The notes under the pieces: model-generated | Database searches by the model: none | Told to the model about the DNA's origin: nothing | What the model saw: only the letters and a program-made list of their open reading frames with translations | Made by a program: the position numbers and the translations under genes | NCBI RefSeq assembly: GCF_014203735.1 | Contig: NZ_JACHJQ010000007.1 | Coordinates: forward strand, 62,001-126,000 | Source of the DNA: Actinophytocola algeriensis | GTDB lineage: Bacteria > Actinomycetota > Actinomycetes > Mycobacteriales > Pseudonocardiaceae | Length of the DNA stretch: 64,000 nucleotides | Reading direction: 5' to 3' | Shown here: in pieces, positions 36,376 to 61,819 of the stretch | Position numbering within the stretch: position 1 is the first letter of the stretch | Layout of the letters: each line of letters begins with the position of its first letter

Positions 36376-37722
36376 TCAGTTGGGTGTCGGACCGGAAAGC
36401 CTGCCCGAGAAGGACACCGCGGGCGTGCACTTGCCCGTCGCCGGTTCCGGTGCGCCCGGCAGCTGGCAGCTGACCTCCACGGTCAGCGGCTGGTCGGGGC
36501 TGAACGTCCACGGCTCCAGGAAGTGGAAGTCCATGTCCCGGAAGTTCTGCAACCCGGTCGCGTACAGGACGTCGTCACCGCGCTTGATCGCGAGCGTGCC
36601 GCTGTCGCCGCGCGGGTTCTGCAGGATGATGTCGGTCAGCACCAACGTCTTGTCCGGCGGAATCGCACCGTTCGGCACGGCGAACGACTCGAACTCGGCC
36701 GGGTCGGCCTGCGCGTCCGCGTCGGTCGTGATGCGGAAGTCCACAGCGGTCCCGTCGGAGATGTCCACGCCCTGATCGTCCGTCGTCGCGCCCCGGGCAC
36801 CGCCACCGGCCGCGCCGTCGCCGGGACCACCGTTCGCGGCCATCTCGTCGACCTTCTTCTCCGCCGCGTTGGCCTTCTCCTCCGCCGCCACGGCACGCCG
36901 CTCGGCCAGGTTCGCCTGCTCCTGCAGCTCGGCCTGTGCCTCCTCGGCCGCCGCCTTGCCCGCCTCGCGGGCCGCGGTCTGCACCGTCGGCTTGACGAGC
37001 GTGAACCACAGCACCGCCAGCACGACCGCGGCGGCGAGCACCGCGACCGCCGCGGGCAGCAGCCACTTCGGCAGCATCTGCTGCTGCACGACCGTGCCGT
37101 CCATGTTGACCGGTGGCTGGTCCGGCGCGATCGCGGTGACCCCGAACGGCAGCCGCTTGTCGGCGCCGCGCAGGAACCGGTCGTACGGCTTGGCCTTCAG
37201 CTTGAGGAACGCGGAGGTACCCGGCTGCACGGTGAGCGCGCTGTGGTCCAGCGACAGCTTCAGCTGCTCCTCCGGGTCGTTCGTGATGACCTCGACCGGG
37301 ATCGGGTAGTTGCCGGAGTTCTCGACGACGACCTCGTGCACGGCCTTGGTGCGGCACCGCGACGACTTGGGCGACAGCTCCAGCTGCAGGTCCATGAACG
37401 GCTCGACGTCGACCGCACCTTCGGCGACCGACGAGTTCGGCGGGTCCTCCCGCGAGATCACCCGTACGCCGAACGGCACCTGCCCGGCGGGCACCGACGA
37501 GTTCCGTGGCGGCTCGAACCGCACGGTGGCCTCGCCGTCCTGCCCCGGCATCAGGTTCATGACGCGCGGTGTGACCTCGGACCATTCCCGAGAATCACCG
37601 ACGATGTCCAAGGTGAACTGGTCGACCAGTGTGCCGTTGTTCCGCACCAGGACCGTCGCCTCGACCGCCTGACCCGGAGTCACGGACAGCTGCCTGTTGG
37701 CCAGCGACGTGGTTGCTCCCAT
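36376..37722 (-). CDS. Ig-like/coiled-coil single-pass membrane protein (COG1470 'hydrolytic protein' type)
   Basis: 448 residues. Two Ig-like (CARDB-type) domains (about 1-110 and 110-200; VTPGQAVEATVLVRNNGTLVDQFTL and VVVENSGNYPIPVEV), a TM helix (about 220-243, WLLPAAVAVLAAAVVLAVLWFTLV), a coiled coil rich in Ala/Glu/Lys (EAGKAAAEEAQAELQEQANL through EEKANAAEKKVDEMA), then a beta domain with a single cysteine pair near the end (VSCQLPG and GKCTPA). There is no signal peptide before the Ig domains, which therefore may be cytoplasmic. Genes like this, annotated 'hydrolytic protein', lie in Streptomyces CIS loci (from memory). No hydrolase motif is seen. Confidence 0.75.
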   Translation of the reverse strand: MGATTSLANRQLSVTPGQAVEATVLVRNNGTLVDQFTLDIVGDSREWSEVTPRVMNLMPGQDGEATVRFEPPRNSSVPAGQVPFGVRVISREDPPNSSVAEGAVDVEPFMDLQLELSPKSSRCRTKAVHEVVVENSGNYPIPVEVITNDPEEQLKLSLDHSALTVQPGTSAFLKLKAKPYDRFLRGADKRLPFGVTAIAPDQPPVNMDGTVVQQQMLPKWLLPAAVAVLAAAVVLAVLWFTLVKPTVQTAAREAGKAAAEEAQAELQEQANLAERRAVAAEEKANAAEKKVDEMAANGGPGDGAAGGGARGATTDDQGVDISDGTAVDFRITTDADAQADPAEFESFAVPNGAIPPDKTLVLTDIILQNPRGDSGTLAIKRGDDVLYATGLQNFRDMDFHFLEPWTFSPDQPLTVEVSCQLPGAPEPATGKCTPAVSFSGRLSGPTPN

Positions 37723-42613: not shown

Positions 42614-42703
42614 CAGCCTCGGGGGTGGTGTGGGGCTTGCGCCCCCCTTGCTTTCGCACCCTCACGACGTCCGTTGTGCAGCCGGGACGTGGCTCGATGT
42701 CAT

Positions 42704-42776
42704 GAAGGACCCCTTCATTATGTTGAGCGCAACGAAGGGGCCCTTCATCGCGCCGGGCGTTATGAAGGGGCCCTTC
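42704..42776. repeat. Palindrome array D, three 30-bp units
   Basis: Cores GAAGGACCCCTTC (42704) and GAAGGGGCCCTTC (42734, 42764) at exact 30-bp spacing, ending 48 bases before the stop of the zinc-ribbon gene. With the long inverted repeat it accounts for most of the gap 42316-42823, in which I see no gene. Confidence 0.92.
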
Positions 42777-42823
42777 GTGGCATCGCAGCTGTCCCGAAGC
42801 GTCCTTCAGGGCGGCGGCAGCTT

Positions 42824-44491
42824 CTACACCTCCTCGAAGAACTCGATCTCGCTGATCGCCAACGTGTTGCCGGTGACCGACTTGAAGGTCGACACCACGT
42901 GGACCTCCACGCTGGACACGCCGTCGCCGTTCTCCAACTCCAGTGTCTGCGGGTCGGGCAGGTCCTGGAGGTTGACGTCGGTGGTCTTGCCGGTGGAGTA
43001 CACGAGGTGCAGCTTCTGGGCGCGGGCCGTCGCCTTGAAGTCGTTGCCGTCGCCGTTGTGGACGATGATGCGGGCCAGGTCCACGGTGCGGTCGAACTTC
43101 ACGACCAGGTTCGGCTCCGCGCCGCCCATGGGGGCGCCCCAGAAGCTGTCGGAAGCACCGTCCACCGCGTTGTTGGCGGGGTGGTCGGGCAACGCGACGG
43201 ACGCCGTGGGCGCCTCGGCGGCGGACACGGGCGCGTACTGGGGGAAGACGAGCCGCTCGAACGTGCCCTTGGCCTCGGCCGCCTGTTCGTTCACCCAGCC
43301 GCGGAACGGCGCGAACAGCCCGTAGGCGATGCCACCCAGCACGAGCGCGAGCGCGACCACCCGGCGGGCGACCTTGAAGACGGTGCTGAACGCGACACCG
43401 AGCTTGGACTTGCCGCCCCGGCCACGGCGTTTCGACCGTTCGCCCGCCGTGCGGACCTTCGCGCCACGCCTGGGGAGCAGCTTGCGCCACCAGGGCGTCT
43501 TGACGACCTCCGCCGCGGCGAGGGACGTGCCGCAGCGGCTGCAGAACTTGCGGGTGGGGGCGTTGCCCTCACCGCAGTCGCCGCAGACCAGCTCGCCCGG
43601 TTGCAGCTTCTTGGACGGCGGCTGCTTGCGGACCTGGGGTGGCTTCTTCTGCGCCTCCTGGGGTACGACCGCGTCCGGTTGTGCGGTCGCCGTTCCGGTG
43701 ACCGGGGTGACCAGCGCCTTCGCGTCGTCCGATGACGGCGGTGCGGGCGGCTTCGGCGGTGGCGGAGGGGGCAGCGCGAGCCCGCCGGACGGCGCAGGTG
43801 GCGCGGCCGCCCCGCCGGGTGGGGACGGCGGAGCCGTCGGCGGAGCCGTCGGCGGCTTCGGTGGCGGAGGTGGTGGCAGCGCCGGACCAGCCGCCGTCGG
43901 CGGCCCCGGTGGCGCGGGCGGGGGGCCCGGCGGGGGCGGGGGCTTCGGCGGTGCGGCAGGCGGTCCCCCGGCCGCTCCCGGTGGTGGGGGCGGCTTCGGT
44001 GGTCCGGGGGGCGGCGGTGGCTTCGGCGGCCCGGGCGGAGACGGCGGCCCACCCGCGCCCGGCGGAGGCGGTGGCTTCGGTGGTCCAGGGGGCGGTGGTG
44101 GCTTCGGTGGTCCGGGCGGCGGCGGTGGCCCACCCGCGCCCGGTGGCTTGGGCGGCCCGGCCGGCGGCCCGCCGGCACCAGGTGGCCTCGGCGGTCCAGG
44201 AGGCCCGGGCTTCGCGCCGGGCGGACCAGGCGGACCGGCACCCGGACGCCCTGGCATCCCCGGCTTCGCCGGGGTCTGCACCGGCTCCCGCTCACCGACA
44301 TCCAGGTACAGCGCCGACTGCAGCCGGGACAGCCAGCCCCGCTTGGGCGTCTCCTCTTCCTCCTCCTGCGGCGCCGCGGGCACCGGCGCCGGGGCCAGCT
44401 TCTCCCCCGTCCACTCGAGGAACGCCCCGCACGAACCGCAGAACGCGTCCGTTTCCTTGTTGTGGAAACCGCACGTCTTGCACACGATCAT
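42824..44491 (-). CDS. Zinc-ribbon, polyproline, single-TM, discoidin-like membrane protein of the CIS (CisA-like)
   Basis: 555 residues. Zinc ribbon 1 (Cys4, Cys7, Cys18, Cys21; CKTCGFHN, FCGSCG), a short polar part, about 180 residues of Gly/Pro repeats (PPKPPPPPGPPKPPPPPG), zinc ribbon 2 (about 303-320: CGDCGEGN, FCSRCG), a basic segment, one TM (about 373-395), and a C-terminal domain (about 430-555) resembling F5/8-type or NADase-type carbohydrate-binding folds (ASDSFWGAPMG, VDLARIIVHNGDG, ISEIEFFEEV). Topology: ribbons inside, C-domain outside. From memory, Streptomyces CIS have a membrane tether (CisA) of this build. Last gene of the CIS operon. Confidence 0.85.
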   Translation of the reverse strand: MIVCKTCGFHNKETDAFCGSCGAFLEWTGEKLAPAPVPAAPQEEEEETPKRGWLSRLQSALYLDVGEREPVQTPAKPGMPGRPGAGPPGPPGAKPGPPGPPRPPGAGGPPAGPPKPPGAGGPPPPPGPPKPPPPPGPPKPPPPPGAGGPPSPPGPPKPPPPPGPPKPPPPPGAAGGPPAAPPKPPPPPGPPPAPPGPPTAAGPALPPPPPPKPPTAPPTAPPSPPGGAAAPPAPSGGLALPPPPPPKPPAPPSSDDAKALVTPVTGTATAQPDAVVPQEAQKKPPQVRKQPPSKKLQPGELVCGDCGEGNAPTRKFCSRCGTSLAAAEVVKTPWWRKLLPRRGAKVRTAGERSKRRGRGGKSKLGVAFSTVFKVARRVVALALVLGGIAYGLFAPFRGWVNEQAAEAKGTFERLVFPQYAPVSAAEAPTASVALPDHPANNAVDGASDSFWGAPMGGAEPNLVVKFDRTVDLARIIVHNGDGNDFKATARAQKLHLVYSTGKTTDVNLQDLPDPQTLELENGDGVSSVEVHVVSTFKSVTGNTLAISEIEFFEEV

Positions 44492-44529
44492 GATGGCTCC
44501 TCCGCGGAAAGAAGTGCGTCGTCGCTCAT
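44488..44529 (-). CDS. 13-residue coupling frame between tail protein I and the zinc-ribbon gene
   Basis: ATG (44527-44529) overlaps the upstream stop, and its own stop TGA (44488-44490) overlaps the zinc-ribbon start, both as ATGA. The peptide is MSDDALLSAEEPS, and the GGAGGA motif of the next gene lies within it. It may exist only to pass ribosomes on to the next gene; expression as a peptide is uncertain. Confidence 0.4.
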   Translation of the reverse strand: MSDDALLSAEEPS

Positions 44530-45065
44530 GGTCTGTCCACCTCCACCCTGTGCACCACGTGCGCGGGCTTCGCGGCGGCCACCGCGGAGTCGACCAGGTC
44601 CATCGGCACGGTGGACGGGTCGTGCACGCGGATCCGGACGGCCAGGCGGGGCGACGCCTCGCCCGGCATCCCGGCGTCCGGGTTCTTCGACCAGCCCACC
44701 CCGCCGCTGTCGGCGATCTCCACCCGGCCGCCGGTCAGGACCTGCAGGTTCGCGCGCAGGCCCGCTACCGTGCCGCGCATCCGGTACATCTCGACCGCCG
44801 TCGCGACGACCGCTCTGCGGCGTTCGATCGGCCAGCCCTCTTCGAGGGAGATCCCCACCCAGTCGGCGATCCACTCGAGGAAGTCCTCCGGCGCCAGGTA
44901 CGGGTCGAAGTAGTACACCAGGCAGTCCAAAGTGGACAACACCGGCGCGAGGACGTCGTCGAAGCCGCCCACGAACCGGTCCGTGAACGGGTCCTCCTGG
45001 TACACCGCGGGCAGCATCCTGATGAACGGCGACGCGTTCGCCATGCCCGTCACCATGCCGCGCAT
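44526..45065 (-). CDS. CIS baseplate/tail protein I (P2 gpI-like)
   Basis: 179 residues from ATG 45065 (MRGMVTGMANASPF). Conserved core of the tail-protein-I family: MLPAVYQEDPFTDRFVGGFDDVL, FDPYLAPEDFLEWIADWVGI, IERRRAVVATAVEMYRMRGTVAGLRANLQVLTGG. In contractile particles it sits at the outer baseplate, where fibres usually attach. Overlaps the J gene by one base (TGATG). No fibre gene follows; the zinc-ribbon gene takes its place. Confidence 0.9.
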   Translation of the reverse strand: MRGMVTGMANASPFIRMLPAVYQEDPFTDRFVGGFDDVLAPVLSTLDCLVYYFDPYLAPEDFLEWIADWVGISLEEGWPIERRRAVVATAVEMYRMRGTVAGLRANLQVLTGGRVEIADSGGVGWSKNPDAGMPGEASPRLAVRIRVHDPSTVPMDLVDSAVAAAKPAHVVHRVEVDRP

Positions 45066-47017
45066 CAGTGGTCCTCCACCCTGACGTGGTGCTCGAAGGA
45101 GAAGATGAGGCTGTGCCGGTCGACGTCGAGCCGCTGGCACTCCTCACCGCGCTCGCCGGTCACCGGGTTCGCGCCGAACAGCCGGACGTCCTCCACCAGG
45201 TCCACGCCGCGCACCCGTTGCAGCAGCGCGTAGACGTCCCCGGACTGCACCGGCCTGCCGAAGTCCCAACCGCGGCCGTCGCGCCCGCCGCTGATCGGGT
45301 TCAGGTACTCGTACAGCGCCGCCAACGCATCGGCGCGGACGCGGGCCTTGTCCAGTCGTGGCCGGGCGATCACCCGCGCCACCACCGTCACGCCCCGGTA
45401 CTTCGGCGGCGACACCAGCACTCGCGTGCCGATCAGCCGCACCTCGTCCAGGCGCTCGGAGATCCGCCGCAGCGTCTCCTCCTCCGGCACCAGCTCGGCG
45501 AAGTCGATCCGGCCCTCCACCTCGGCGGCCGCGGGCACGATCAGCACCCGCACCGAACCGGGGTCGGTGTCCTCGTCGCCCGCGGTCACGCAGCGCACGC
45601 GGGCCACGTCCGGCGCCGCCTCCTGCGTGATCGCCTCGTAGTCCTCGGCGGTGACCGCACGACTCCTCGTACGCAGGAGAATCGGGCCGCGCGCCTTCGC
45701 CTCGTCGACGCTCTCGCCGTCGACCCCGCCCCACGCGGCCTCGATGTTCTCGACCCGGGAGACGAAGGGGATGGACGACTTCAGCGTCTGGATCGCACCC
45801 TTGCCGACGTTGCCGACGCGGCCGCCACCGGTGGCGTACTTGCGGAGCCGGACCGTCGACCCGTACGGCGGCACCGCGCCGTACTGGCGCAGACCCCCGT
45901 CCGGCTCGCGGATCACCGGTCCGAAATGGACAGTGCCGGAGGTGCCGTCGAGGAGGTAGTGCCGGTCGGACGGGTCGCTGCCCGCGAAGTTGTGGACCTG
46001 CGTCCACTCCTGCCAGCCCTCCTCGGACGTGGTCTCCAGCACCGTCTCGCCCGCGCCGATCACGATCGGGCGCCGGGTCGTCCGGAACTCCTGACCTGGC
46101 ACGCCCTCCGAGTCGCCGAGCACCTCCTCCTCGACGATCTCGCAGTGGTTCGCCTCGACCGTGCCGCCGATCGTGCTGGCCGACAGCGCGGTCACGAGCG
46201 GCGACGCCTGGTAGGTCGGCCAGTCCTCGGCCACCTCGATCACCCGCGCCCGCAGCCAGCCTGCCGCGTTGCCGCCGAGCACCGCCGACTCGTGGTCGGC
46301 GGGCACGTGGAGGTGGATCTCACCGGCCGTGTTCAGCGCACCAGTGCCGTCGGTGCTGACCACGCACTTGCGCCACTCCTTGCCGTTCCACGCCTCCCAC
46401 ACCAGCGGCGGGTGGTCGGGGTGCACGCCGACACCCTCGACGCGGCAGTCGAGGTCGAGGCGCACCACGCAGTTCGGCACCGGGTCGGACAGGCCGACGA
46501 GCACCGTGTCGCCCGAGCGCGGGACAGCAGAGAACGCCTGGAACGACTGGCCCATCTTCAGCTCGTCGGTCCGGTCGACCTGCGCGTCGGCGTCGGCCGC
46601 CCTGGTGGCGACGAAGTTCAGCGCGCACGGCACGATCCGCAGGTCCGCGCCGGTGGCGAACACGACCGACTCGTCGGTCTCGGTGCGCAGCGTCGCGACG
46701 TTCGTGCCCATGGCCACCCCGACCGGGGTGATCGCGGGCGCGGACAGCCAGAACGTGACGTCCGCCTGCGCCGGGGTGGCCGGGATGAGCCGCAGCCCGA
46801 TGAGCTCGAGGAACTTCACGTACAGCCGGTCCGGCACCTGGTTGAGGCGGAACAGCAGCTGGTCGGTCATGAACGCGAACGTCTCGATCAGCGTGACGCC
46901 CGGGTCGGACACGTTGTGGTCCGTCCACTCCGGACACCGGCGCATGACCATGCGCTTCGCGTCGTCCACCAGGTCCTGGAACCGGCGGTCATCGAGGTTC
47001 GGGGCAGGCAGCGCCAT
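45065..47017 (-). CDS. CIS baseplate wedge protein J (Afp11/T4 gp6-like)
   Basis: 650 residues. ALPAPNLDDRRFQDLVDDAKR at the start, WTDHNVSDPGVTLIETFAFMTDQLLFRLNQVP, then YKFLELIGLRLIPATPAQADV, later GGVDGESVDEAKARGPILLRTRSRAVTAEDYEAI, typical of baseplate J proteins. Forms the ring of baseplate wedges that triggers sheath contraction. Overlaps gp25 start and tail I start by one base each. Confidence 0.93.
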   Translation of the reverse strand: MALPAPNLDDRRFQDLVDDAKRMVMRRCPEWTDHNVSDPGVTLIETFAFMTDQLLFRLNQVPDRLYVKFLELIGLRLIPATPAQADVTFWLSAPAITPVGVAMGTNVATLRTETDESVVFATGADLRIVPCALNFVATRAADADAQVDRTDELKMGQSFQAFSAVPRSGDTVLVGLSDPVPNCVVRLDLDCRVEGVGVHPDHPPLVWEAWNGKEWRKCVVSTDGTGALNTAGEIHLHVPADHESAVLGGNAAGWLRARVIEVAEDWPTYQASPLVTALSASTIGGTVEANHCEIVEEEVLGDSEGVPGQEFRTTRRPIVIGAGETVLETTSEEGWQEWTQVHNFAGSDPSDRHYLLDGTSGTVHFGPVIREPDGGLRQYGAVPPYGSTVRLRKYATGGGRVGNVGKGAIQTLKSSIPFVSRVENIEAAWGGVDGESVDEAKARGPILLRTRSRAVTAEDYEAITQEAAPDVARVRCVTAGDEDTDPGSVRVLIVPAAAEVEGRIDFAELVPEEETLRRISERLDEVRLIGTRVLVSPPKYRGVTVVARVIARPRLDKARVRADALAALYEYLNPISGGRDGRGWDFGRPVQSGDVYALLQRVRGVDLVEDVRLFGANPVTGERGEECQRLDVDRHSLIFSFEHHVRVEDH

Positions 47018-47430
47018 CAGTAGTCACTCCCGTCCTCTGGGATGGTGTAGAAGGGGAAGACCAGGTTGCGCCGGTCGTTGGTGTCCTTCGGGCGGTACTG
47101 GATGTCGATGTACAGCACGCCGTCCTCCTCCGGGTGCGGCGTGACGAGCACCCCCTCGACGTCCACGCGCGGCTCCCAGCGCAGCAGTGCCTCGCGCACC
47201 ACCTGCGACAGCTCGCCGATCGTCTCGATGTTGATCGGCCGGAACACGAAGTCGCGGATCCGGCTGCCGAACTGCGGGCGCATGGGCCGCTCACCGGGGT
47301 AGGTGGACAGGATCAGGCGCATCGCCTGCTCCAGCTCCATCTCCCTGCGCACCAGGGCGATGCCGCCCTGCGGCGCGACCCCGAGCGGGAACGCCCACCC
47401 GGCACCGATGAAGTCTTGTTGTGTGGTCAC
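47017..47430 (-). CDS. CIS baseplate gp25-like (GPW/gp25) protein
   Basis: 137 residues with GWAFPLGVAPQGGIALVRREMELEQAMRLIL and TYPGERPMRPQFGSRIRDFVF, the gp25 fold with the EPR-like motif (here GERPMRP). It joins the inner baseplate to the sheath and nucleates sheath assembly. Its start lies eight bases after the spike gene stop. Confidence 0.93.
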   Translation of the reverse strand: MTTQQDFIGAGWAFPLGVAPQGGIALVRREMELEQAMRLILSTYPGERPMRPQFGSRIRDFVFRPINIETIGELSQVVREALLRWEPRVDVEGVLVTPHPEEDGVLYIDIQYRPKDTNDRRNLVFPFYTIPEDGSDY

Positions 47431-47438
47431 GAAATCCC

Positions 47439-49397
47439 CTAGTTCAGCTTGATCAGAGAGCCCTTGACCTCGACGATGGCGCTGCTCTCGATCTTCACGC
47501 CCATCTTCCCGTTCAGCGACAGCTGCCCGTCGGTCTCGATCTTGATCCCGCCCATGCCGCCCTTGATCGTGATGCCGCCGAGCTCACCGCACTCGATGGT
47601 CAGCGATCCCTTGGGGGACTTGGACTCCGGTGGTTTCGGGTTGCACGCCAGCGTCACCGTGCCCGCCACCTGGTCGATGACGAGCCCGAGCTTGTCACCC
47701 TTGGTGCCGAGCTGGACCTTCGACTGGATCGGCGGCAGACTGCCCGGCGGTCCGGGCGGCAGCTCGTCGGTGAACGTCAGCTGGTTCGCCGCTGGGCTCG
47801 CGATTCCGCGCTTGGTGACGATCCCCGAGCCGGCCACGGCGGTCTTCAGCTCACCGAAGTCGGACTTGCTGTTGATCAGTCCACCCAGGACGTACGGCCG
47901 CCGCGAGTCGCCGAACTCGAAGCCCACCAGCACCTCGTCGCCGACCGACGGCAGGAACAGCGCGCCGGTCTTCGCACCGGCGCCGAACTGCACGACCCGC
48001 GCCCAGTCCGACTCGAAGTTCGGGGCGAGCCACGGCAGCGAGACCTTGACCCGGCCGAGCTTCTCCTTGTCGGCGACGTTGGTGACGATCCCGCACACCA
48101 GCCCGCCGAAGTCGGTCCGCTTCGCCGCGGCACCGCCGGAGGTGAGCCCCAGCAGCGACCGGTTCTGCCGCCCGGACACCCAGAACCTGGTGCGGTAGCC
48201 GAACTCCTCCGGGTCGAACACGTGCCGCGCGTTGGTGACGTACCACTTGCCGCAGAACTGTTCCGGCACACCCGCGATCTCGACCTCGGCACCCGCCTGG
48301 ACCTTCGGGTCGCCGTTCGCGACGCCCTCGGCCTCGGCGAACGTGCTGGCGATGTGGTCGGCGACGCCCTTGGCCGCCGCCTCCGCCGCCGTGTCCGCCG
48401 CGGGTCCGACGCCGAGCGGCCGGTCCACCACGACGTACGCGGTGTTGCTCGACGGCAGCCCGAAGTCGAGCTTGGGCAGGCCGGGGATGGACGGCAGCGC
48501 GGGCATCGACGGCAGCGAGATCAGCCCGTCGGTGAACGACTTCGCGAGCTTCGCCGGGTCCTGGTCCTTGATCGTCGCGGTGCCGGTGGCCGAGTCGGTC
48601 TTGGCGACGGCGACGCGGGCGTCCTTCGGGTCCCACACCCGCACCTCGACGTCCGGCGTGATGTTCGCGGCCGACAGCCTCGGCAGGAACGTGTGCAGGT
48701 TGTCCTTGAACGTCAGCTTCCCGTTGCCGAGACCGACCATGCTCGCGACGGCGTCCACGGCGGACGCGAGCGCGCCGCCGATGCCGCCGCCACCGTCCTT
48801 GCGTCCGGATGCCTTGCGGAAGAAGAACTCCCCGCCGACGACTCCGGTCTCGTAGCCGATCTCGCGCGCCCGCTGCAGCAGGAAGTCCCAGTCGGACTGG
48901 GCGACCTGCGCGACGTGGTCGTGCGCGACCGAGGTCTCCTCGACCTTGCCGATGGTGAGGCCCGCGTTCGTCGCGACCTCCTTGGCGATCTCGGAGTCCT
49001 TCATGTTCACGAAGGTGCGGGTGCGCTTCGCGCGCTGCAGCCGGTGCGCCTTCTCGTACCCGCGGACCACCGAGTAGATCAGGCCTTCCTGGCAGATCGC
49101 CTCGATCGAGGTCACCTCGCCCTTGATGAGCGAGGTGGTGTTGTCGCTGTCCGCCGGCCCGGCCAGGATCTCCACGACCGACCCGATCTTGAGGCCGGCG
49201 TCGTTCACGACCGTGCCCTCCAGGTCGTGGAAGGTCAGCTCGAACATGTCGGGCAGGTGCAGGTGGGTGTCGACGACGGCGCGCATCAGCTTCGGCAGCA
49301 CCAGCGGCGACAGCGGCAGCCCGACCGGCTTGCCGATCTTGACGGTCGGCCAGACGATCGCGGTCTTGCTGCCGCCGAGGAGACCACCGAGCGTCAT
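47439..49397 (-). CDS. CIS hub-spike protein (gp27/gp5, VgrG-like)
   Basis: 652 residues. N-terminal late-control-D/gp27-like hub (about 45-370: LHLPDMFELTFHDLEGTVVND, DWDFLLQRAREIGYE), then the OB fold of gp5/VgrG (about 440-510: GIVTNVADKEKLGRVKVSLPWL, DEVLVGFEFGDSRRPYVLGGL) and a short beta-helical needle (LTIECGELGGITIKGGMGGIKIE, MGVKIESSAIVEVKGSLIKLN). No lysozyme domain. The tip is the PAAR protein from the opposite operon. Start ATG 49397, overlapping the LysM gene stop by four bases. Confidence 0.93.
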   Translation of the reverse strand: MTLGGLLGGSKTAIVWPTVKIGKPVGLPLSPLVLPKLMRAVVDTHLHLPDMFELTFHDLEGTVVNDAGLKIGSVVEILAGPADSDNTTSLIKGEVTSIEAICQEGLIYSVVRGYEKAHRLQRAKRTRTFVNMKDSEIAKEVATNAGLTIGKVEETSVAHDHVAQVAQSDWDFLLQRAREIGYETGVVGGEFFFRKASGRKDGGGGIGGALASAVDAVASMVGLGNGKLTFKDNLHTFLPRLSAANITPDVEVRVWDPKDARVAVAKTDSATGTATIKDQDPAKLAKSFTDGLISLPSMPALPSIPGLPKLDFGLPSSNTAYVVVDRPLGVGPAADTAAEAAAKGVADHIASTFAEAEGVANGDPKVQAGAEVEIAGVPEQFCGKWYVTNARHVFDPEEFGYRTRFWVSGRQNRSLLGLTSGGAAAKRTDFGGLVCGIVTNVADKEKLGRVKVSLPWLAPNFESDWARVVQFGAGAKTGALFLPSVGDEVLVGFEFGDSRRPYVLGGLINSKSDFGELKTAVAGSGIVTKRGIASPAANQLTFTDELPPGPPGSLPPIQSKVQLGTKGDKLGLVIDQVAGTVTLACNPKPPESKSPKGSLTIECGELGGITIKGGMGGIKIETDGQLSLNGKMGVKIESSAIVEVKGSLIKLN

Positions 49398-50161
49398 CGG
49401 GCGATCCCCTCGTCCAGCTCCTGCGGGTTCGGCAGGTAGACGGTGTCGCCGGGCCGCACGCGGGTCGGGTCCTGGATGCCGTTGACCTCGGCGATCCGCC
49501 GCCACGCCCCGGGGTTGCCGTAGTTGGTGGTGGCGATGGACTGCAGCGACTCGCCGTGCCCGACGGTGTGCGCGCGGCGGCCGACGAGCCCGCCGGAGGT
49601 GGGGTTCTGCGGGAGCGACCCGAGCAGCGTCGGGACCTCGATCAGCGACAGGTTCACCTTGGCGCGCACGGGAATCCCGGCGGAGGTGAACCGGACGTAC
49701 TTGATCCCGACCTGCTGCATCACGACCGTGTACATGAACCCGATCATCGGCGGGCCCCACTGGAACGTCAGCTCCGGCGGCTGCGTCTTGAGGTTCTTGC
49801 CCGCGACCACCGACATCAGCTGACCGAGGAACCCGGCGTCGGGGCTGGCCCACGTGAGCAGCGTGTCGCAGCGCAGCTTCGTGTCCATGCCCTCGAGCGT
49901 GATCTCGTTGATCGTGATCTTCGACGGCTCGGACTTCGGGGTGGCCTGCTGCGTGCCACCGGTCTGGGGCGAGGGCATGGACCGCCGCGCAGCGGTGCGC
50001 CCCATCGAGATCTCCTTCGGGTTGAAGTCGAAGTAGACGAACCCGATGTTGGGCAGCGTGGTGCAGCGCAGCGACGCGGGCACCCTGGCCCCGGCGAGCG
50101 CGGCGGCGCCGATCGCGGCGCCGGCGGCGAGGTTGGCGCCCGCACCGATCATGGCGGTCAT
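49394..50161 (-). CDS. CIS LysM-domain tube/baseplate adaptor (Afp7-like)
   Basis: 255 residues from ATG 50161. A central contractile-particle domain (IGFVYFDFNPKEISMGRTA, NEITLEGMDTKLRCDTLL, LTFQWGPPMIGFMYTVVMQQVGIKYVRF) and a C-terminal LysM (about 195-245: HTVGHGESLQSIATTNYGNPGAWRRIAEVNGI, VRPGDTVYLP). Typical of the hub-linked LysM protein that joins tube and spike. Ala-rich N-terminus (GAGANLAAGAAIGAAALAGA) is an amphipathic or hydrophobic stretch. Confidence 0.9.
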   Translation of the reverse strand: MTAMIGAGANLAAGAAIGAAALAGARVPASLRCTTLPNIGFVYFDFNPKEISMGRTAARRSMPSPQTGGTQQATPKSEPSKITINEITLEGMDTKLRCDTLLTWASPDAGFLGQLMSVVAGKNLKTQPPELTFQWGPPMIGFMYTVVMQQVGIKYVRFTSAGIPVRAKVNLSLIEVPTLLGSLPQNPTSGGLVGRRAHTVGHGESLQSIATTNYGNPGAWRRIAEVNGIQDPTRVRPGDTVYLPNPQELDEGIAR

Positions 50162-50177
50162 CGTGTGGTCCCTCCTG

Positions 50178-50630
50178 CTACAGGAATCCCTCGTGCACGA
50201 GCACGAGTTGTTCGGTCGCGATGCCGAGCGTCCCGGCGTCGAGGTCCGGGCCCTTCCAGCTGTCCGGGTAGACGTTGCGCAGCGTCCAGGTCGCGACCTT
50301 CTGCGCGTGCGCGTCGAACAGCGAGATCTGCGCGGTGCCACCCCCGCCGCTGGCGTGCGCATCGATCCAGCCGGACGCGCGTTCCCGCAGCCAGGACTGG
50401 ACCTTCGCGGTGTCGGCGGCGTTGATGGCGCGCTGCAACGTGACGGGCGTGTACTTGATGGCGCCCGGCATGACCGTCTCGTACTGGTAGTTCCCGCCGT
50501 CGTGCTGCGGCTCGGGGTTGAACTTCACCTCGAGGCCCTGACAGCGCGCCCACCCGCCGAGGTCCACCCCGTCGACGGACACGTGGAACCGCGTCGTCAG
50601 GGCGAGCATGGTGTTGAGGCTGATCGGCAT
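50178..50630 (-). CDS. CIS tail tube paralogue (Afp5-like)
   Basis: 150 residues. Phage T4 gp19/tube fold: MPISLNTMLALTTRFHVSVDGVDLGGWARCQGLEVKF and YTPVTLQRAINAADTAKVQSWL, IATEQLVLVHEGF. The second of three tube-like proteins; with the next gene it probably forms the tube-baseplate adaptor rings. Spacing of nine bases from the upstream gene. Confidence 0.9.
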   Translation of the reverse strand: MPISLNTMLALTTRFHVSVDGVDLGGWARCQGLEVKFNPEPQHDGGNYQYETVMPGAIKYTPVTLQRAINAADTAKVQSWLRERASGWIDAHASGGGGTAQISLFDAHAQKVATWTLRNVYPDSWKGPDLDAGTLGIATEQLVLVHEGFL

Positions 50631-50639
50631 CGTGAGTCC

Positions 50640-51098
50640 TCAGCTGAGCTTGCGCTCGTCCTCGAGGAACCCGCGGTGCACGAGTTCGAGGGTTTCCATG
50701 GCGACCTGGCTCGCGCCGGCGTCGAACGACGTGATCGACCACTTGGCGGGCATCACGTCACGCAGCGTCCACTCGGTGACCTTCTTCGCGGCGGTGGTGT
50801 ACAGCTGGATGGAGCCGGCGAAGACCTCCATCTCCCAGGAGTTCTTGTTCAGCCACTGCTTGACCTTCTCGGTCTCCTCGGACACCCCTCGGATGAGCTT
50901 CACGTTGGTGTACTTGGTGTTGCCGGGGAAGTAGAGCCGGTCGTTGCCGCCGTCGCCCATGCGGTACTCGGCGATGTCCCAGGCGACGTCGAGCCCCTCC
51001 GCCTTGGTCCAGCTGCCGAGGTCGTACTCGGACTTGCCGGACATGCTCACGACGAAGCGGTTCGCGAGGCCGATCGATGAGGTGTCGGTCAGTCCCAT
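50640..51098 (-). CDS. CIS tail tube paralogue (tube initiator type)
   Basis: 152 residues. ANRFVVSMSGKSEYDLGSWTKAEGLDV, FPGNTKYTNVKLIRGVSEETEKVKQWL, SQVAMETLELVHRGFLEDE. It is a gp19-like fold clearly related to the preceding gene's product, but with a longer loop. Twelve bases after the DUF4157 gene stop. Probably a tube-initiator or adaptor ring. Confidence 0.9.
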   Translation of the reverse strand: MGLTDTSSIGLANRFVVSMSGKSEYDLGSWTKAEGLDVAWDIAEYRMGDGGNDRLYFPGNTKYTNVKLIRGVSEETEKVKQWLNKNSWEMEVFAGSIQLYTTAAKKVTEWTLRDVMPAKWSITSFDAGASQVAMETLELVHRGFLEDERKLS

Positions 51099-51110: not shown

Positions 51111-53429
51111 CTAACGGAAGTCGGTGAGCAGTCCCGCGCGCTCACGGTCGACGAGCAGTTCGAGCCGCAGCCTGCTGCGGAGGCGGTCGTAGAGGCGCTC
51201 GGACAGCTCGTCGAGATCGAGCCTGCTGACGGCGATCGGCTGGTCGTCCGTGGCGGTGGCACCGGCGGTCTGGGTCAGCGCGGCGGCCTGCTGCTGTTGC
51301 TGCGGTGTCGCCGCGTTGCCCGTGTCGTCCGCCTTCTTCTGGTCCGGCTCGTCGGCGAACCAGTTGTCCGGGTCGGCGCCTGCCGCGGTGCCGGAGAGGC
51401 CGAACCCACCCAGCAGGCGTTGTTTCAGCGGCCGCTTGTCCTCGCTGCCGAACCAGCTCTTGTCGGACCCGACCGGTTGGCTGAAACCGGTCAGCCCGAG
51501 CCCGTAGTTCGGGTCCGTGCCGGTCAGCCCGTGGATCCACGCCTCTTTCGAGTTCGCCTTGTAGTTCGGCCGTGTCGGGGTGGAAACCGGTGTCGCGGTG
51601 CCGTTCTGCATGTCGTCGAGCTGGCGCTCGATCCGTTCGTAGTGCGCGGCGTCGAGGTCGGTCAGGGGGTCCTTGCCCTGGTCGAACCGCTCCTGGTTGA
51701 CCGCGTCCAGGGTCTGGCGGACCAGCTCCTCCTTGCGGGCGGCGCGGTCGAACGGCGGCCTCGCCTGCTGCTGCGTCGTGGTGCCGCCCGACGTGCTGCC
51801 CTGCTTGCGTTCCAGCTTCGGGTTGGTCCACTCGGTGACCACGTGCCGGGCGGACTCCTCGGCGATCCGGCCGACCTCGGCCTTCGTGGCCGAGTCGAAC
51901 GGGCTCTGGACCGGCTGGGCGACCACGGGTGCCTGCGCCTGCGCGGGTGCCGTGAACAGCTGGGCCGGGGCGGACAGGTCGGGCTCCGGCGAGTGGACCG
52001 CGGGTTGCGGGGCGTGGATGAGCGGTGCGGGCTCCGGCGCGCCGGACTCGCCGCCGTAGAAGCGTTCCGCGGCCTGCGCCTCGGCCTCCAGCTGCTGCCC
52101 GAGCGGGGAGTCCGGCGACGGGAGGACCGGGCCGAGCGTGCGCTGCTGCACGGCGTGCACCAGCTCGTGCGCGAGCAGCCCCCGGGCCCGCGGCGAGTCG
52201 ACCGGGCCGGCGTCGTCGGGCAGGAACACCGCACCGCCGGACGCGAACGCCTTGGCACCACGTGCTTTCGCCGCCTCGCCCACCTTCTGGCCGCGGTAGA
52301 CGGGAACGTTCGCGACGTCGGCGTGCTGGTGTGCGCGGACGGCGTGCGCGAGGTCGCCAGGCACCCGGTCGACGACCGTGGCACGCGGCAGCGGCTTCGG
52401 CTTGCGTGGCGGCAGCAGCCGCGCGGTGGCGCGGAACGACGTGGCGGTGACGCGCTTCTCGGGCGCCGGGCCCGCGCCCGGCGGGTTCGGCCGGACCGCC
52501 GTGGACGTCGTCGGTGCCGTCGGAGGTGGCGGCGGGGGCGGCGGGGGTGGCGGGCGCAGCGGCTCGGGATCCGGCTCCGGTTCCGGCTCTGGCTCGGGTT
52601 CCGGTTCGGCGGCCACACGCACAGGGGCCGCCGGTGGGGGCGGCGGCTCCTGTGGTGTCGCGGGCTCGACCGACCCGTCCACGACCCGTGGCGGTGCCTC
52701 GGGATGGATCAGGTCTTCTCGTGATGGCGCTGGGATAGGAGCGCCGAGGCCGAGCCTGCGTGTCTGGCCGAGGTTGGGCTTGCGCTTGCGCATCGCGCGC
52801 TGCACGGGCGCCTCGGCCCGATCGACTCCCTCCACCATGCGCGGCGGCGGTTCCGGCGCCGGGGTGGCCGCCGGCGGTTCCGGTGCGTTCCGCAGCTCCG
52901 GCGGGAGGAAGGACGGTGGTTCCGCGAGGGGCGCTTCCGGTTCGTGGCCGGGGAGGCCGGGGAACATCGGCAGCCCGGGGTTGGTGGCGAACCGCAGCCA
53001 GTCGGGCGCCCGGTAGGGCTCGGCGGCCACCCTCGGCTCGCCGACGTACTTGTCGACCGCGTCGGTCAGCACCTGCGCCTCGGTGGGTGCCGGACGCACG
53101 GCCCTGCGCACCACCGGTGCCGGCGGCAACGGTGCGGCGGGCACCGCCTCGGCCACCGGCTGACTCGCCCGCACCACGGGCCGGGCGAGCCCGGTGACCG
53201 ACCCGGTGGGCGGCGCTTCGGCAGGCGCCTTCCGGACCGATGGCCGCAACGGCGGCAGCACGGGCGCGGGCCCCGCGACCAGCGGGGCCCCTCGGCTGAT
53301 CGTGACGGGGATGGCGGGCAGCGCGGCCCACTGCCGGACAGGCGGCGCCACCCTGCTCGCGGCAGGAGCGGCAGGAGGAGCCACGGCAGTCTCCGTGGTC
53401 TCCCGCTTCCGCCGGAATGGCCAGCGCAT
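51111..53429 (-). CDS. Large DUF4157 (HExxH) protein of the CIS, possible effector or loader
   Basis: 772 residues from ATG 53429 (MRWPFRRKRETTE). The first 380 residues are low-complexity Pro/Ala/Glu-rich with PEPEPEPEPEPDPEPL. The DUF4157 domain (about 355-455) contains ALAHAVRAHQHADVANVPVY, then SGGAVFLPDDA and RGLLAHELVHAVQQRTLG, the metallopeptidase-like HExxH at about 420-424. The C-terminal 300 residues hold helical segments and NYGLGLTGFSQPVGSDKSWFG. eCIS loci nearly always include such a protein. It has no signal peptide and lies in the particle operon. Confidence 0.88.
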   Translation of the reverse strand: MRWPFRRKRETTETAVAPPAAPAASRVAPPVRQWAALPAIPVTISRGAPLVAGPAPVLPPLRPSVRKAPAEAPPTGSVTGLARPVVRASQPVAEAVPAAPLPPAPVVRRAVRPAPTEAQVLTDAVDKYVGEPRVAAEPYRAPDWLRFATNPGLPMFPGLPGHEPEAPLAEPPSFLPPELRNAPEPPAATPAPEPPPRMVEGVDRAEAPVQRAMRKRKPNLGQTRRLGLGAPIPAPSREDLIHPEAPPRVVDGSVEPATPQEPPPPPAAPVRVAAEPEPEPEPEPEPDPEPLRPPPPPPPPPPPTAPTTSTAVRPNPPGAGPAPEKRVTATSFRATARLLPPRKPKPLPRATVVDRVPGDLAHAVRAHQHADVANVPVYRGQKVGEAAKARGAKAFASGGAVFLPDDAGPVDSPRARGLLAHELVHAVQQRTLGPVLPSPDSPLGQQLEAEAQAAERFYGGESGAPEPAPLIHAPQPAVHSPEPDLSAPAQLFTAPAQAQAPVVAQPVQSPFDSATKAEVGRIAEESARHVVTEWTNPKLERKQGSTSGGTTTQQQARPPFDRAARKEELVRQTLDAVNQERFDQGKDPLTDLDAAHYERIERQLDDMQNGTATPVSTPTRPNYKANSKEAWIHGLTGTDPNYGLGLTGFSQPVGSDKSWFGSEDKRPLKQRLLGGFGLSGTAAGADPDNWFADEPDQKKADDTGNAATPQQQQQAAALTQTAGATATDDQPIAVSRLDLDELSERLYDRLRSRLRLELLVDRERAGLLTDFR

Positions 53430-53457
53430 CGGCTTTTCCCCTTCTTCCGGAGTCCAC

Positions 53458-53616
53458 TCAGGACTCGTCCGTGAACCGCGTGTGGATCTTGCCGATCTCA
53501 CCGATCACGCGGTTCCGGACCGGGTGTTCGAGGTCGAGGATCTTGTCCAGGTCCCAGTGCAGGTAGTAGGCGACGTACGCGAGTTCCTCCCACACGCGGT
53601 CAACCGCGTACGTCAC
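53458..53616 (-). CDS. Small CIS protein, DUF6760-type (52 residues)
   Basis: Starts at GTG 53616 with GTGA overlap on the upstream stop. Product: VTYAVDRVWEELAYVAYYLH then WDLDKILDLEHPVRNRVIGEIGKIHTRFTDES. It has the EELAYVAYYLHW signature of small helical proteins found between the assembly protein and DUF4157 gene in actinobacterial CIS (DUF6760 by memory). It is too short for most gene finders. Probably a tail-assembly chaperone-like factor. Confidence 0.8.
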   Translation of the reverse strand: MTYAVDRVWEELAYVAYYLHWDLDKILDLEHPVRNRVIGEIGKIHTRFTDES

Positions 53617-54011
53617 GATCCCCCCGGCGCATCACCGGCGACGTCCACCGCGAAGTCGTTGCCGCAGTGCGGACAGCTCACCGCGACCTCCGTGTGTCCG
53701 TCGGCGTTGATGCGCCGGTACAGGTCCTGCAGGAACGCGAGGTCCGAGGCGAACAGGCTCTCGACGAGGAACGTGTCCACCACCGGCACGTCCCCGAGCG
53801 AGGTGACCGTCCGCTCCAGCAACAGAACCGTCAGGTACGCCGGGTTCTGCTTGGCGCGCTGGTCGTTCTGCGTGGTGATCTCGTCCCGCGCGGTCGCGAG
53901 CCGCATGACGCCGTCCCGGTGCACGCGGCCCGTCTCGTCGACGTAGCCGCGCGGCAGCGTGAACGGGTACTCGGTCCGCAGGCCGGTCTCGGCGGCAGCG
54001 GGCGCTGTCAC
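53613..54011 (-). CDS. CIS assembly protein with zinc-ribbon end (T4 gp26/51-type slot)
   Basis: 132 residues from GTG 54011 (VTAPAAAETGLRTEYPFTLPRGYVDETG), in GTGA overlap with the tube gene stop. Core: AYLTVLLLERTVTSLGDVPVVDTFLVESLFASDLAFLQDLYRRIN, then a CPHCGNDF motif with only one CxxC near the end. In CIS loci this gene always follows the tube. I infer a tail assembly role; the exact function is unknown. Confidence 0.82.
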   Translation of the reverse strand: MTAPAAAETGLRTEYPFTLPRGYVDETGRVHRDGVMRLATARDEITTQNDQRAKQNPAYLTVLLLERTVTSLGDVPVVDTFLVESLFASDLAFLQDLYRRINADGHTEVAVSCPHCGNDFAVDVAGDAPGGS

Positions 54012-54448
54012 GCCGACACGCGCTGGATGCGCTCGGACACGATCGTGACCGTCTCCATGAGCACCTCGGACGAACCCGCCTTCAGCGCGCCGATCTCCAG
54101 CTTCGACGGCCACGCGTGCTCGAGGTGGTACCGCGCGACCGGCTTGCCGTCCGGCCCGTACATCACCAGCGAGCACGACTTGCGGGCGTTGATGATGTCG
54201 CCGTTGAGCACGGACTCGTGCCACGCCCACAGCGCCATGTGGTCGGACTTGCCGCGCTTGAGCACGACGGTCGCCGGCTCGGTCTTGCCCGGCAGCTTCT
54301 TGAGGATCACCTCTTTGTCACTGGACTCCAGGTGCTCCACCGGCTTCACCTCGGTGGTGATGCCCTGCAGCTCGGAGAACGCGGCGATCTCGTAGCCGTC
54401 GATGGTGATCGAGAACCGTGCAGCTGTGATCGGGTCGCCAGCAGCCAT
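54008..54448 (-). CDS. CIS main tail tube protein
   Basis: 146 residues: GDPITAARFSITIDGYEIAAFSELQGITTEV, VLKRGKSDHMALWAWHESVL, ARYHLEHAWPSKLEIGALKAGSSEVLMETVTIVSE. It is the gp19/Hcp-like ring protein that forms the inner tube. Immediately downstream of the sheath gene (35-base gap), the position of the main tube in CIS. Confidence 0.93.
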   Translation of the reverse strand: MAAGDPITAARFSITIDGYEIAAFSELQGITTEVKPVEHLESSDKEVILKKLPGKTEPATVVLKRGKSDHMALWAWHESVLNGDIINARKSCSLVMYGPDGKPVARYHLEHAWPSKLEIGALKAGSSEVLMETVTIVSERIQRVSA

Positions 54449-54483: not shown

Positions 54484-56016
54484 TCATTCCTCGAGGCCGG
54501 CACCCTCGGCGAACTGCGAGATCCGGAAGACCACGAACTCGGCCGGCTTCACCGGCGCGATGCCGATCTCGACGGTCAGGATCCCGGCGTCCCGGTTCTC
54601 CGCCGGGTTGTTCTCCTCGTCGCACTTGACGAAGAACGCCTGCGCGGGCTGCTGCCCGAACAACGCGCCGTCCCGCCACACGCGGCGGAGGAACATGGTG
54701 ACCGTGCGCTTGACCGAGTCCCACAGCTTCGGGTCGTTCGGCTCGAACACGACCCAGTTCGTGCCCTGCAGGATCGACTTCTCGACGTAGTTGAACAACC
54801 GCCGCACGTTCAGGTAGCGCCACTCCGGGTCGCTCGACAGCGTGCGCGCGCCCCACACCCGGATGCCCTGGCCGCGGAAGCTGCGGATGCAGTTGACCGC
54901 GATCGGGTTGAGCACGTCGTGCTCGCCCTTGGTGATGTTGAGCTCCAGGGTGACCGCACCGCGCACGACCTCGTTCGCGGGCGCCTTGTGCACGCCGCGG
55001 CTGGTGTCGTTGCGCGCCCAGATGCCTGCCATGTGACCCGACGGCGGGATGAACACCTGCTTGCCTGCCACCGGGTCCGCGACCTTGATCCACGGCCAGT
55101 ACATGGCGGCGTACTTCGAGTCGTAGCCGGTGACGTCCTGCCGCCAGTCCTTGACGTCCTGCGCGTTGAGGCCGGGCGGGGTGTCGAGGATGGCGACGCG
55201 GTCGGCCATCAGCTCGCAGTGCGCGATCATCGCGAGCTGCACTGCCTTGACGTCCTCCGCGGACAGCGTGCCGCGCTGGTAGGCGGCCATCAGGTCCGGC
55301 ACGCACAGCATGGTCACCTCGTCGATGGCCTCCAGGCCACCGAAACCGGTGCGGTCGGCGGAGTTGCCGACGTAGGCGTTCGCCTCGACCTTGACCGGCG
55401 CGGGCGCCGGGGAGCCGAGCGCGACCTCGCCCGCCTTGGGCAGCGCGAGCGCCTTGCCCTTGGTCTCCTCGACGGTGATCAGCTTCGACTGCTGGCGCAC
55501 CACGGTCGCGACGTTGTTGGGACCGCGCTTGGTGGTCACGTTGTCGAACGTCTCCACCGGCTGCCCGTGCTGCTTCACGACGAGCTTGAACGTGTCGTCG
55601 CCGTCCTCGGACGCGGACGCGACCTCGACGGCCAGGTCGGCGGTCTCGGCGCTGCGGGCCGAGATGGTGAGGCCGGGGCGGTCCGCGCCCGCGGCGGGCA
55701 GCTCGGCGGCGGGCAGCGCCACCTGGCCGTTGACCGAACCGTTCTGCGACTCACCGCCGACGCGCACGACGTAGGCCGTGCCGCCACCGTTCTGGAAGTA
55801 GCCGTACACGGAGTGCGCGAGGTAGTAGCCCTCGACGAAGTCACCGAAGTTCTGCTTGAACTGCGTCCAGTTGGTGACCATCACGGGCTCGTGCAGGGGG
55901 CCGCGCTCGGCGAAGCCCACGAAGGCGGCAACCGCGGTTCCCACGGCCTCGATGGGCCGCGAACCTGAGGAAACCTCCTCCATGTACACACCGGGCGCGA
56001 GGTAACTGCTGGCCAT
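54484..56016 (-). CDS. CIS contractile sheath protein
   Basis: 510 residues. N-terminal arm ASSYLAPGVYMEEVSSGSRPIEAVGTAVAAFVG, domain with FKQNFGDFVEGYYLAHSVYGYFQNGGGTAYVVRV, and conserved C-terminal domain with GIRVWGARTLSSDPEWRYLNVRRLFNYVEKSIL, EPNDPKLWDSVKRTV, AGILTVEIGIAPVKPAEFVVFRI. This is the single sheath gene; Photorhabdus-type PVCs have several. Head of the long leftward operon. Confidence 0.95.
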   Translation of the reverse strand: MASSYLAPGVYMEEVSSGSRPIEAVGTAVAAFVGFAERGPLHEPVMVTNWTQFKQNFGDFVEGYYLAHSVYGYFQNGGGTAYVVRVGGESQNGSVNGQVALPAAELPAAGADRPGLTISARSAETADLAVEVASASEDGDDTFKLVVKQHGQPVETFDNVTTKRGPNNVATVVRQQSKLITVEETKGKALALPKAGEVALGSPAPAPVKVEANAYVGNSADRTGFGGLEAIDEVTMLCVPDLMAAYQRGTLSAEDVKAVQLAMIAHCELMADRVAILDTPPGLNAQDVKDWRQDVTGYDSKYAAMYWPWIKVADPVAGKQVFIPPSGHMAGIWARNDTSRGVHKAPANEVVRGAVTLELNITKGEHDVLNPIAVNCIRSFRGQGIRVWGARTLSSDPEWRYLNVRRLFNYVEKSILQGTNWVVFEPNDPKLWDSVKRTVTMFLRRVWRDGALFGQQPAQAFFVKCDEENNPAENRDAGILTVEIGIAPVKPAEFVVFRISQFAEGAGLEE

Positions 56017-56338
56017 CTCGGATGTCTCCCTCGTTGGGTCGTACGCGTGTGACCGGCGTGACCGGCCCCGTCTGAGTGTGTTGATTTCGCACCGGACGGC
56101 TCAGTCGTCGCGGGGCGGTGGGGAGGGCGGGCGCAGCCGCCCCTTCGGGCGGCCGCTGGTGCTTGTCCCCCTGTGTCGCGTCCGATCTCCGAACCTGCTG
56201 GCACCGGCACCGGGCGCGGCAGTCGTCGCGGGGAGGGACGGCGGGCGGCACCGGCTGCCCTTTCGGGCGGCGGTCACGCGCTGAAAGGACGGGCGACGGA
56301 CTGCTGTGCCCGCGTCTGCCCGCCGTGACACTGGTGCC
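56017..56338. promoter_or_regulatory. Divergent promoter region of the two CIS operons
   Basis: The 322 bases between the sheath gene and the DUF4255 gene carry no gene. They include two copies of a GC-rich, hairpin-forming block (next entry). The segment nearest the sheath start is less GC-rich and probably holds that promoter. The nearby LAL regulator is a candidate controller (inference). Confidence 0.7.
56102..56275. repeat. Two direct copies of a hairpin-forming block
   Basis: CAGTCGTCGCGGGG begins copies at 56102 and 56219. Each contains a GGGCGG...hairpin (CCGCCCCTTCGGGCGG in the first, TGCCCTTTCGGGCGG in the second) about 30-45 bases on. A duplicated block in a promoter region suggests tandem regulatory sites. 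Confidence 0.75.
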
Positions 56339-61560: not shown

Positions 61561-61819
61561 ACTGTCACGCCCCGCGCAAGGAGGCGCGCGTCTTTTCCTG
61601 CGGCTGTTCCACGGTCCGGGACACGGCACCGATCGTGGCACTGAGGGTGACGGGGGCGACATCGGGAGAACACGCAGTTCCGGCGCGAACTCCCGGGTAA
61701 GGGGTACGGGGGACGGCCCTCCTGAGGGGCCGTGGGCGGTGCTCCGGGGTCAGGAGAGCACCTTCGGGCTGCGATTCATGCAGGGCCAGGATCTGTCGTC
61801 CGGCGCAGCCTGGGGAGCC

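Follow-up and report, generated by a model that had tools for sequence, protein, structure and literature searches.

The window, that is, the whole 64,000-nucleotide stretch of Actinophytocola algeriensis DNA that was analysed, carries the gene cluster of a contractile injection system (CIS), in which the gene considered here, a homologue of Streptomyces cisA, is found together with the following genes.

36376..37722, minus strand: protein with one transmembrane (TM) segment and an N-terminal ASH/Cep192-type domain, candidate CIS effector of the Sco4256 type (homology, match to description)
42824..44491, minus strand: cisA homologue, whole gene (open reading frame, Pfam and NCBIfam matches, homology to Streptomyces proteins in the CisA position)
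44526..45125, minus strand: cis12-like baseplate wedge protein, TIGR02242 / Tail_P2_I (profile match)
45065..47017, minus strand: cis11, TIGR02243 baseplate protein (profile; best PDB match 9gtp_1K)
47017..47430, minus strand: cis9, gp25-like (profile match)
47439..49400, minus strand: cis8, VgrG-like spike (profile match)
49394..50362, minus strand: cis7-like protein, CIS_tube plus LysM (profile match; true start probably further in)
50178..50630, minus strand: inner tube paralogue, gp19 family (profile match)
50640..51098, minus strand: inner tube paralogue, gp19 family (profile match)
51111..53501, minus strand: protein with an eCIS_core domain, PF13699 (profile match)
54008..54448, minus strand: inner tube protein, gp19 family (profile match)
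54484..56016, minus strand: cis2, contractile sheath (best PDB match 8bky/9gtp)
56306..56944, plus strand: cis16-like cap protein, Pvc16_N (PF14065), divergent (profile match)

Among PDB chains, the closest matches of both Cis11 (9gtp_1K, E 6e-226) and the sheath (8bky/9gtp, E 9e-203) belong to the CIS of Streptomyces coelicolor, 9GTP being its baseplate (PMC12237407) and 8BKY a structure entry of PMC10066040. The order cis8-cis9-cis11-cis12-cisA is confirmed, in line with the initial annotation, which placed the gene at the end of the baseplate genes in the position of a fibre; cisA thus closes the run of baseplate genes in a CIS with S. coelicolor-kind Cis11 and sheath. Its ATG, with GGAGGAG just 5' of it, lies 34 bases from the cis12 stop. 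Such a position after the wedge genes would suit a true tail fibre, which as a structural component of the particle would bind target-cell carbohydrates through its discoidin domain and use its hydrophobic helix for assembly or insertion. Directly past cisA and on the opposite strand is a gene for a P-loop ATPase (40762-42315(+), ORC-CDC6-like, weakly Sll1717 family), and the interval from the cisA end to this neighbouring gene (window 42700-42780) holds three short units that resemble one another around 'aaggggcccttc' and may form a small repeat array.

The product of 555 aa is laid out as follows, where A5 denotes a full-length alignment of 23 rows, 22 of them from Streptomyces.

44429..44482, minus strand: zinc ribbon 1, aa 4-21, Cys 4, 7, 18 and 21 (Pfam; invariant in A5)
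43718..44251, minus strand: Pro/Gly-rich linker tract, aa 81-258, 73% Pro plus Gly (composition; partly 27- and 81-base tandem repeats)
43628..43723, minus strand: conserved cytosolic segment ahead of ribbon 2, aa 257-288 (A5)
43532..43585, minus strand: zinc ribbon 2, juxtamembrane, aa 303-320 (Pfam, A5, Cys positions)
43466..43492, minus strand: basic-aromatic segment WWRKLLPRR, aa 334-342, between ribbon 2 and the TM segment (A5)
43304..43360, minus strand: TM segment, aa 378-396 (hydrophobicity; model helix 365-414)
42833..43204, minus strand: extracytoplasmic discoidin / F5/8-type-C domain, about aa 430-553 (Pfam, NCBIfam, profile and fold comparison)

All eight Cys residues of the protein (4, 7, 18, 21, 303, 306, 317 and 320) fall within the two Cys4 ribbons, which match Pfam Zn_Ribbon_1 and DZR, and the tract comprises 178 residues with 99 Pro and 31 Gly, in agreement with the initial description of two Cys4 ribbons flanking about 180 Pro/Gly residues and followed by a TM segment. 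Since the gap of 281 residues between the ribbons exceeds the length of the tract, the tract is set off from the two ribbons by some 60 and 45 residues. In a full-length model, pLDDT averaged over blocks of ten residues was 60-85 across the ribbons and 36-70 in between. Ahead of the TM segment, aa 330-377 hold 17 Lys/Arg against one Asp/Glu, which by the positive-inside rule predicts an inside N-terminus, and hydrophobicity and charge together predict a long cytosolic N-terminal part, a single TM segment and an outer C-terminal domain. A strong TM segment with a 17:1 positive-inside charge argues against the tail fibre.

An origin of the Pro/Gly frame by chance or as a GC artefact was considered and ruled out, as both ends of the protein are conserved in the paralogue and the relatives with a variable tract in between. 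The architecture is not due to chance either, because the same layout recurs in the 45%-identical paralogue of the same genome and in relatives.

The C-terminal domain matched NF047619 (NADase_discoid; E 1.2e-17, 64.3 bits against a cut-off of 38) and PF25302 (NADase_transloc, F5/8 type C; E 1.2e-8, 35.7 against 27), with PF00754 below its cut-off (22.4 against 28.2). NF047619 matched 23 of 23 rows of A5 and PF25302 18 of 23 (E<=0.001), so the discoidin assignment is sequence-supported for the Streptomyces members too. Comparison of profile A2, consisting of 13 rows of window-type proteins with none from the Streptomyces-like family f33, against the PDB returned 7ji1 as the best sequence match of the domain (E 7e-13, labelled ADP-ribosyl cyclase / cyclic ADP-ribose hydrolase), with weaker matches to F5/8-type-C, fucosidase, hyaluronidase and sialidase modules. 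Entry 7ji1, which we take to be the streptococcal NADase translocation domain, agrees with PF25302 and is the closest PDB relative of the outer domain in sequence, but it is part of a secreted toxin, whereas the 555-aa protein has no enzyme domain by Pfam or NCBIfam.

An AF2 model of aa 400-555 reached moderate confidence (pLDDT 66, pTM 0.64), and its best Foldseek match was the CBM32 structure 2v72 (E 4e-6); VIA-align against the CBM32 chain 7d2a_A gave Z 15.0 and rmsd 2.5 over 122 aligned residues, with many rows tied within 1. As modelled, the fold of the outer domain is discoidin-like, and the carbohydrate-binding-like domain proposed at the outset is upheld by profile (discoidin / F5/8-type-C) and by structural comparison with CBM32; a fold unlike those of glycan-binding domains did not emerge for the last ~125 residues (AF2 model, Foldseek, VIA). 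The fold alone is no proof of glycan binding, because APC10 and muskelin, presumably protein binders, are also among the matches. Several fold matches among viral proteins are annotated as F5/8-type-C or discoidin domains, and NF047619 is present in 66 of 340 class genomes, so the domain occurs outside CIS too. A carbohydrate-binding-type fold is also what a fibre would carry. In the 2023 descriptions, the C-terminal domain of the S. coelicolor protein SCO4242 was called sugar-binding or like carbohydrate-degrading domains (PMC10020575, PMC10066040), and in eLife 2025 that of CisA was described as similar to solute-binding domains (PMC12237407), unlike the discoidin assignment made here.

Sequence comparison firmly establishes the homology of the window protein to Streptomyces proteins in the same position. 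Alignment of A2 with A6, a profile of 14 Streptomyces members, by hhalign gave a probability of 100 and E 4.9e-39 over 233 columns spanning ribbon 2, the TM segment and the C-terminal domain, and blastp of the window protein against the S. albidoflavus member gave E 6e-10. The members in A6 include those of S. albidoflavus (L088) and S. violaceorubidus (L059, 464 aa), the link to SCO4242 running via such orthologues of other Streptomyces species; strain J1074, the published query, is assumed here to belong to S. albidoflavus. The window protein shares only 23-31% identity with the Streptomyces members, so a functional shift is possible.

The family is closely linked to CIS genes. Among 60 genomes, the window's own included, the protein was found at E<=1e-10 in 10 and TIGR02243 in 23, and in all 10 at least one match adjoins a TIGR02243 gene, as far as the listed places were compared. 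Across 345 class genomes, A2 matched at 1e-6 in 36 and at E<=1e-15 in 25 with 27 matches; TIGR02243 is present in 25 of these 25 genomes versus 55 of the 345 overall (hypergeometric 4e-23, shared ancestry ignored), and by the listed places 21 of the 27 strong matches lie within 2.5 kb of a TIGR02243 gene, 4 at 5.8-15.2 kb and 2 on other contigs. Weak A2 matches (E 4e-10 to 1e-6), several of which span only the ribbon positions of the profile, were kept out of this linkage count. Many TIGR02243-type tails do without CisA, since 30 of the 55 genomes with TIGR02243 have no match at E<=1e-15. A scan of genome contigs yielded 256 relatives, 80 of which were kept, 78 of these labelled Streptomyces. 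Where both cis12 and cisA were recognised (80 loci, namely 62 of the 80 kept relatives and 18 others), cisA lies on the same strand at -41 to +32 bases from the cis12 stop in 76, the exceptions being L168 (a false upstream ribbon was taken), L183 (other strand), L091 and L122. The scan of viral contigs matched 60 stretches, none of which was confirmed as a relative. Distant CisA-like proteins adjoining TIGR02243 genes were seen in L016 (G039), L017 (G048) and L024 (G002:C3) at E 6e-11 to 4e-12; their linkers between the ribbons are shorter, at 166 aa (L016) and 98 aa (L017).

Apart from 17 of the 80 kept loci that are cut by a contig end, both ribbons are in frame in 60 of 63; in L122 ribbon 1 lies in a different frame, and no ribbon is seen in L091 or L118. 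The 22 further CIS-linked proteins, from which L034 and L045 are left out for giving no open reading frame, carry two strict ribbons in 20 cases, one strict and one degenerate ribbon in L048, and a degenerate juxtamembrane ribbon in L047, which was read in part. Judged by these sequences, both ribbons are general in the CisA family. In 49 proteins of these loci read from the start codon, a set that serves for lengths and Cys counts only because it was chosen by the presence of two ribbons, the ribbon gap is 146-419 residues, with 8 Cys in 45 proteins and 9 Cys in 4. Across nine loci of window relatives, window included, the gap extends from 98 to 524 residues, and linker length is hypervariable in the family (98-524 aa). 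Besides both ribbons, the invariant positions of A5 include A257, L260, P263, V264, V275, P277, P285 and R288 in the segment ahead of ribbon 2, W334-W335-R336, and D444 and W451 in the C-terminal domain. The WW-basic pattern is not universal, being found in 17 of the 22 CIS-linked proteins.

Ribbon 2 itself is not new, since a Cys-rich, possibly Zn-binding domain before the TM segment of SCO4242, which might attach to the baseplate, is described in PMC10020575. No mention of ribbon 1 was found in the text passages on CisA/SCO4242 consulted, and a literature search combining contractile injection system, Streptomyces and zinc ribbon found no paper. New here are the general occurrence of ribbons 1 and 2 in the family, the hypervariable linker, and 14 CIS-unlinked relatives without ribbon 2.

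These 14 proteins, from two other families, came from a search with NF047619, and 11 of them have one ribbon and 3 none in the frame read. They are counted as unlinked because 11 are encoded in genomes without a listed TIGR02243 gene, those of G116 and G230 lie more than 1 Mb from TIGR02243, and that of G248 stands at a contig end with TIGR02243 on another contig; L136 is outside this count. Most share ribbon 1, the TM segment and the discoidin domain with CisA, and neither the juxtamembrane ribbon nor the WW pattern was found in any of the 14. For instance, the actinobacterial proteins of L145, L147 and L162, not near TIGR02243 as far as listed, resemble CisA in the N-terminal ribbon, Pro-rich linker, TM segment and NF047619 domain, but are devoid of the second, juxtamembrane ribbon and the WW-basic segment. 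Profile A2 includes ribbon 2, so its match set leans to ribbon 2, unlike that of the NF047619 search. From this modest sample, the sequences suggest that ribbon 2 was acquired when the protein was recruited to the CIS, and as none but the CIS-linked members in the set examined were seen to have it, it is a good candidate for the baseplate-docking part. The existence of ribbon-TM-discoidin proteins away from any CIS is a further point against the tail fibre.

In the literature consulted, CisA is the one factor named for the way in which the cytoplasmic CIS of Gram-positive bacteria reach the membrane and commit to firing. CisA (SCO4242) is reported to be membrane-bound with its N-terminus inside and to be needed for firing and for contraction in cells; it is absent from the solved S. 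coelicolor particle and predicted to bind Cis11 (PMC12237407). On account of that absence, direct binding of the particle by CisA is only putative, even in S. coelicolor. SCO4242 peptides were present in particle preparations (PMC10020575, PMC12237407), in three of three according to PMC10020575, where the protein, with its TM segment and carbohydrate-type C-terminal domain, was named a putative fibre. Against this naming stand the membrane location and the absence from the solved particle (PMC12237407), and with the points raised above a true tail fibre is very unlikely.

The window protein resembles SCO4242 in its position after cis11 and cis12, long cytosolic N-terminal region, single TM segment, sugar-binding or carbohydrate-type outer domain (in the 2023 naming), Cys-rich juxtamembrane domain (PMC10020575) and same-kind CIS. 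It differs in length (555 versus 468 aa), and its linker is near-pure Pro/Gly (73%), whereas the Streptomyces orthologues in A5 have linkers of mixed composition (Ala, Pro, Thr, Gly and charged residues); the two CIS loci of the window genome, with one CisA copy each, count as another difference from the S. coelicolor system.

Very probably, then, the window protein is the CisA of this organism's cytoplasmic CIS, a bitopic membrane adaptor that captures particles and permits firing, a confidence that applies to family and general role only. The published properties of SCO4242 are carried over to the window protein by analogy, and docking, sensing and reach are putative steps. Two ribbons and a long disordered Pro/Gly arm would lie in the cytoplasm, one helix would cross the membrane, and the discoidin-type domain would face outside. 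Most likely the arm extends into the cytoplasm and captures a free particle by its baseplate, probably docking on the cis11/cis12 wedge via ribbon 2 and the adjoining conserved segment, with the Pro/Gly linker as a putative setter of reach. CisA would bring the caught particle to the membrane, and would license contraction when the outer domain or the oligomer state signals envelope stress, possibly through sensing of glycans or the wall.

The initial annotation had proposed a membrane tether for the particle, an idea already in print for SCO4242 in two 2023 papers (PMC10020575, PMC10066040), the latter of which describes it as a possible membrane adaptor. The build of cytosolic arm, TM segment and outer discoidin domain, the CIS linkage and the CisA family support this proposal in outline; the published CisA data, however, agree better with particles being recruited transiently ahead of firing than with a permanent tether (PMC12237407). 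The cyanobacterial thylakoid CIS anchor and the T6SS membrane complex likewise bring a contractile machine to the producer's membrane (PMC12237407, PMC10020575), but are built as a baseplate extension or a trans-envelope complex, unlike CisA; the likeness is functional and no homology is claimed. The family comparison yields small testable parts, namely two Cys4 ribbons, a linker of variable length, and an outer domain assigned to the discoidin type instead of an undefined solute-binding one.

In a reading that overlaps with the adaptor and differs from it on docking, the protein senses the envelope or acts as a checkpoint, with firing controlled by oligomerisation of its outer domain and the particle docked by another factor. 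The discoidin-type outer domain, the pentamer predicted for the C-terminal domain of CisA (PMC12237407) and a second one-TM protein encoded in both CIS loci of the genome are in line with it. The long cytosolic side, in contrast, has conserved elements of its own (ribbon 1, segment 257-288 and ribbon 2), and the restriction of ribbon 2 to CIS-linked members among those examined points to a cytosolic CIS partner, which leaves the sensor possible but not probable.

The least likely reading is a cargo or effector, in which a toxic TM protein is ejected by the CIS. It would agree with the toxicity of full-length CisA in Escherichia coli (PMC12237407) and with the known effectors of this CIS type, which have one TM segment and in two cases a ricin-like C-terminus (PMC10066040). 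By contrast, deletion of SCO4242 blocks contraction in cells (PMC12237407), which is not expected on loss of a cargo, no toxin family scored above the Pfam or NCBIfam cut-off in the 555-aa protein except the F5/8-type domain named after the translocation part of an NADase toxin, and a separate family fitting the effector description is present at 36376-37722. Sco4256 is described with a chaperone-like N-terminus, a TM segment and a variable C-terminus (PMC10020575), which fits these ASH/Cep192-type one-TM proteins. They lie 5.1 and 3.0 kb beyond cisA in the two CIS loci of the genome, the second-locus copy being at G000:C3:795236-796456 (L004:318-1577), and the pair shares 30% identity (E 9e-56). 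Of 20 genomes searched, 18 have matches, some of them on other contigs, and tandem copies stand 10-13 kb from cis11 in G168, G281 and G317.

The second CIS cluster of the genome, on another contig (G000:C3:776800-792300, L003), comprises cap, sheath, tubes, eCIS_core protein, spike, gp25, cis11, cis12 and a CisA copy of its own with 45% identity to the window CisA. Over 31 loci, the pairwise distances correlate with r 0.941 for CisA and Cis11, 0.925 for CisA and Cis12, and 0.961 for Cis11 and Cis12; 12 Streptomyces loci were taken for this comparison from 61 with cis11 and 62 with cis12, and L169 and L177 were dropped as their cisA was unrecognised. The tracking of Cis11 by CisA is no evidence of contact, because Cis11 and Cis12 track each other at 0.961 and joint inheritance gives the same result. 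Nearest neighbours agree for CisA, Cis11 and Cis12, the window copy pairing with L165 and the second copy, L164, with L174 and L170, so each CisA of the genome has moved together with its own cluster. In genome G290, which also has two copies (L179, L180), the three proteins do not agree in their nearest neighbours.

A tentative joint reading, held with low confidence, is that CisA arose from a common actinobacterial ribbon-linker-TM-discoidin envelope protein through the gain of a second, juxtamembrane ribbon. This ribbon with the adjoining segment would form a CIS-specific dock for the wedge, the hypervariable Pro linker would set reach, and the discoidin domain would read the glycan state of the cell wall to license firing, and two co-diverging CisA proteins could allow two death machines to be triggered separately. 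Possible cluster-linked regulators occur at both loci, the window CIS cluster lying beside a large regulator of AAA_16 / TPR / LuxR type (58522-61662(-)) and the second being flanked by a BTAD-type regulator (L003:17291-19777).
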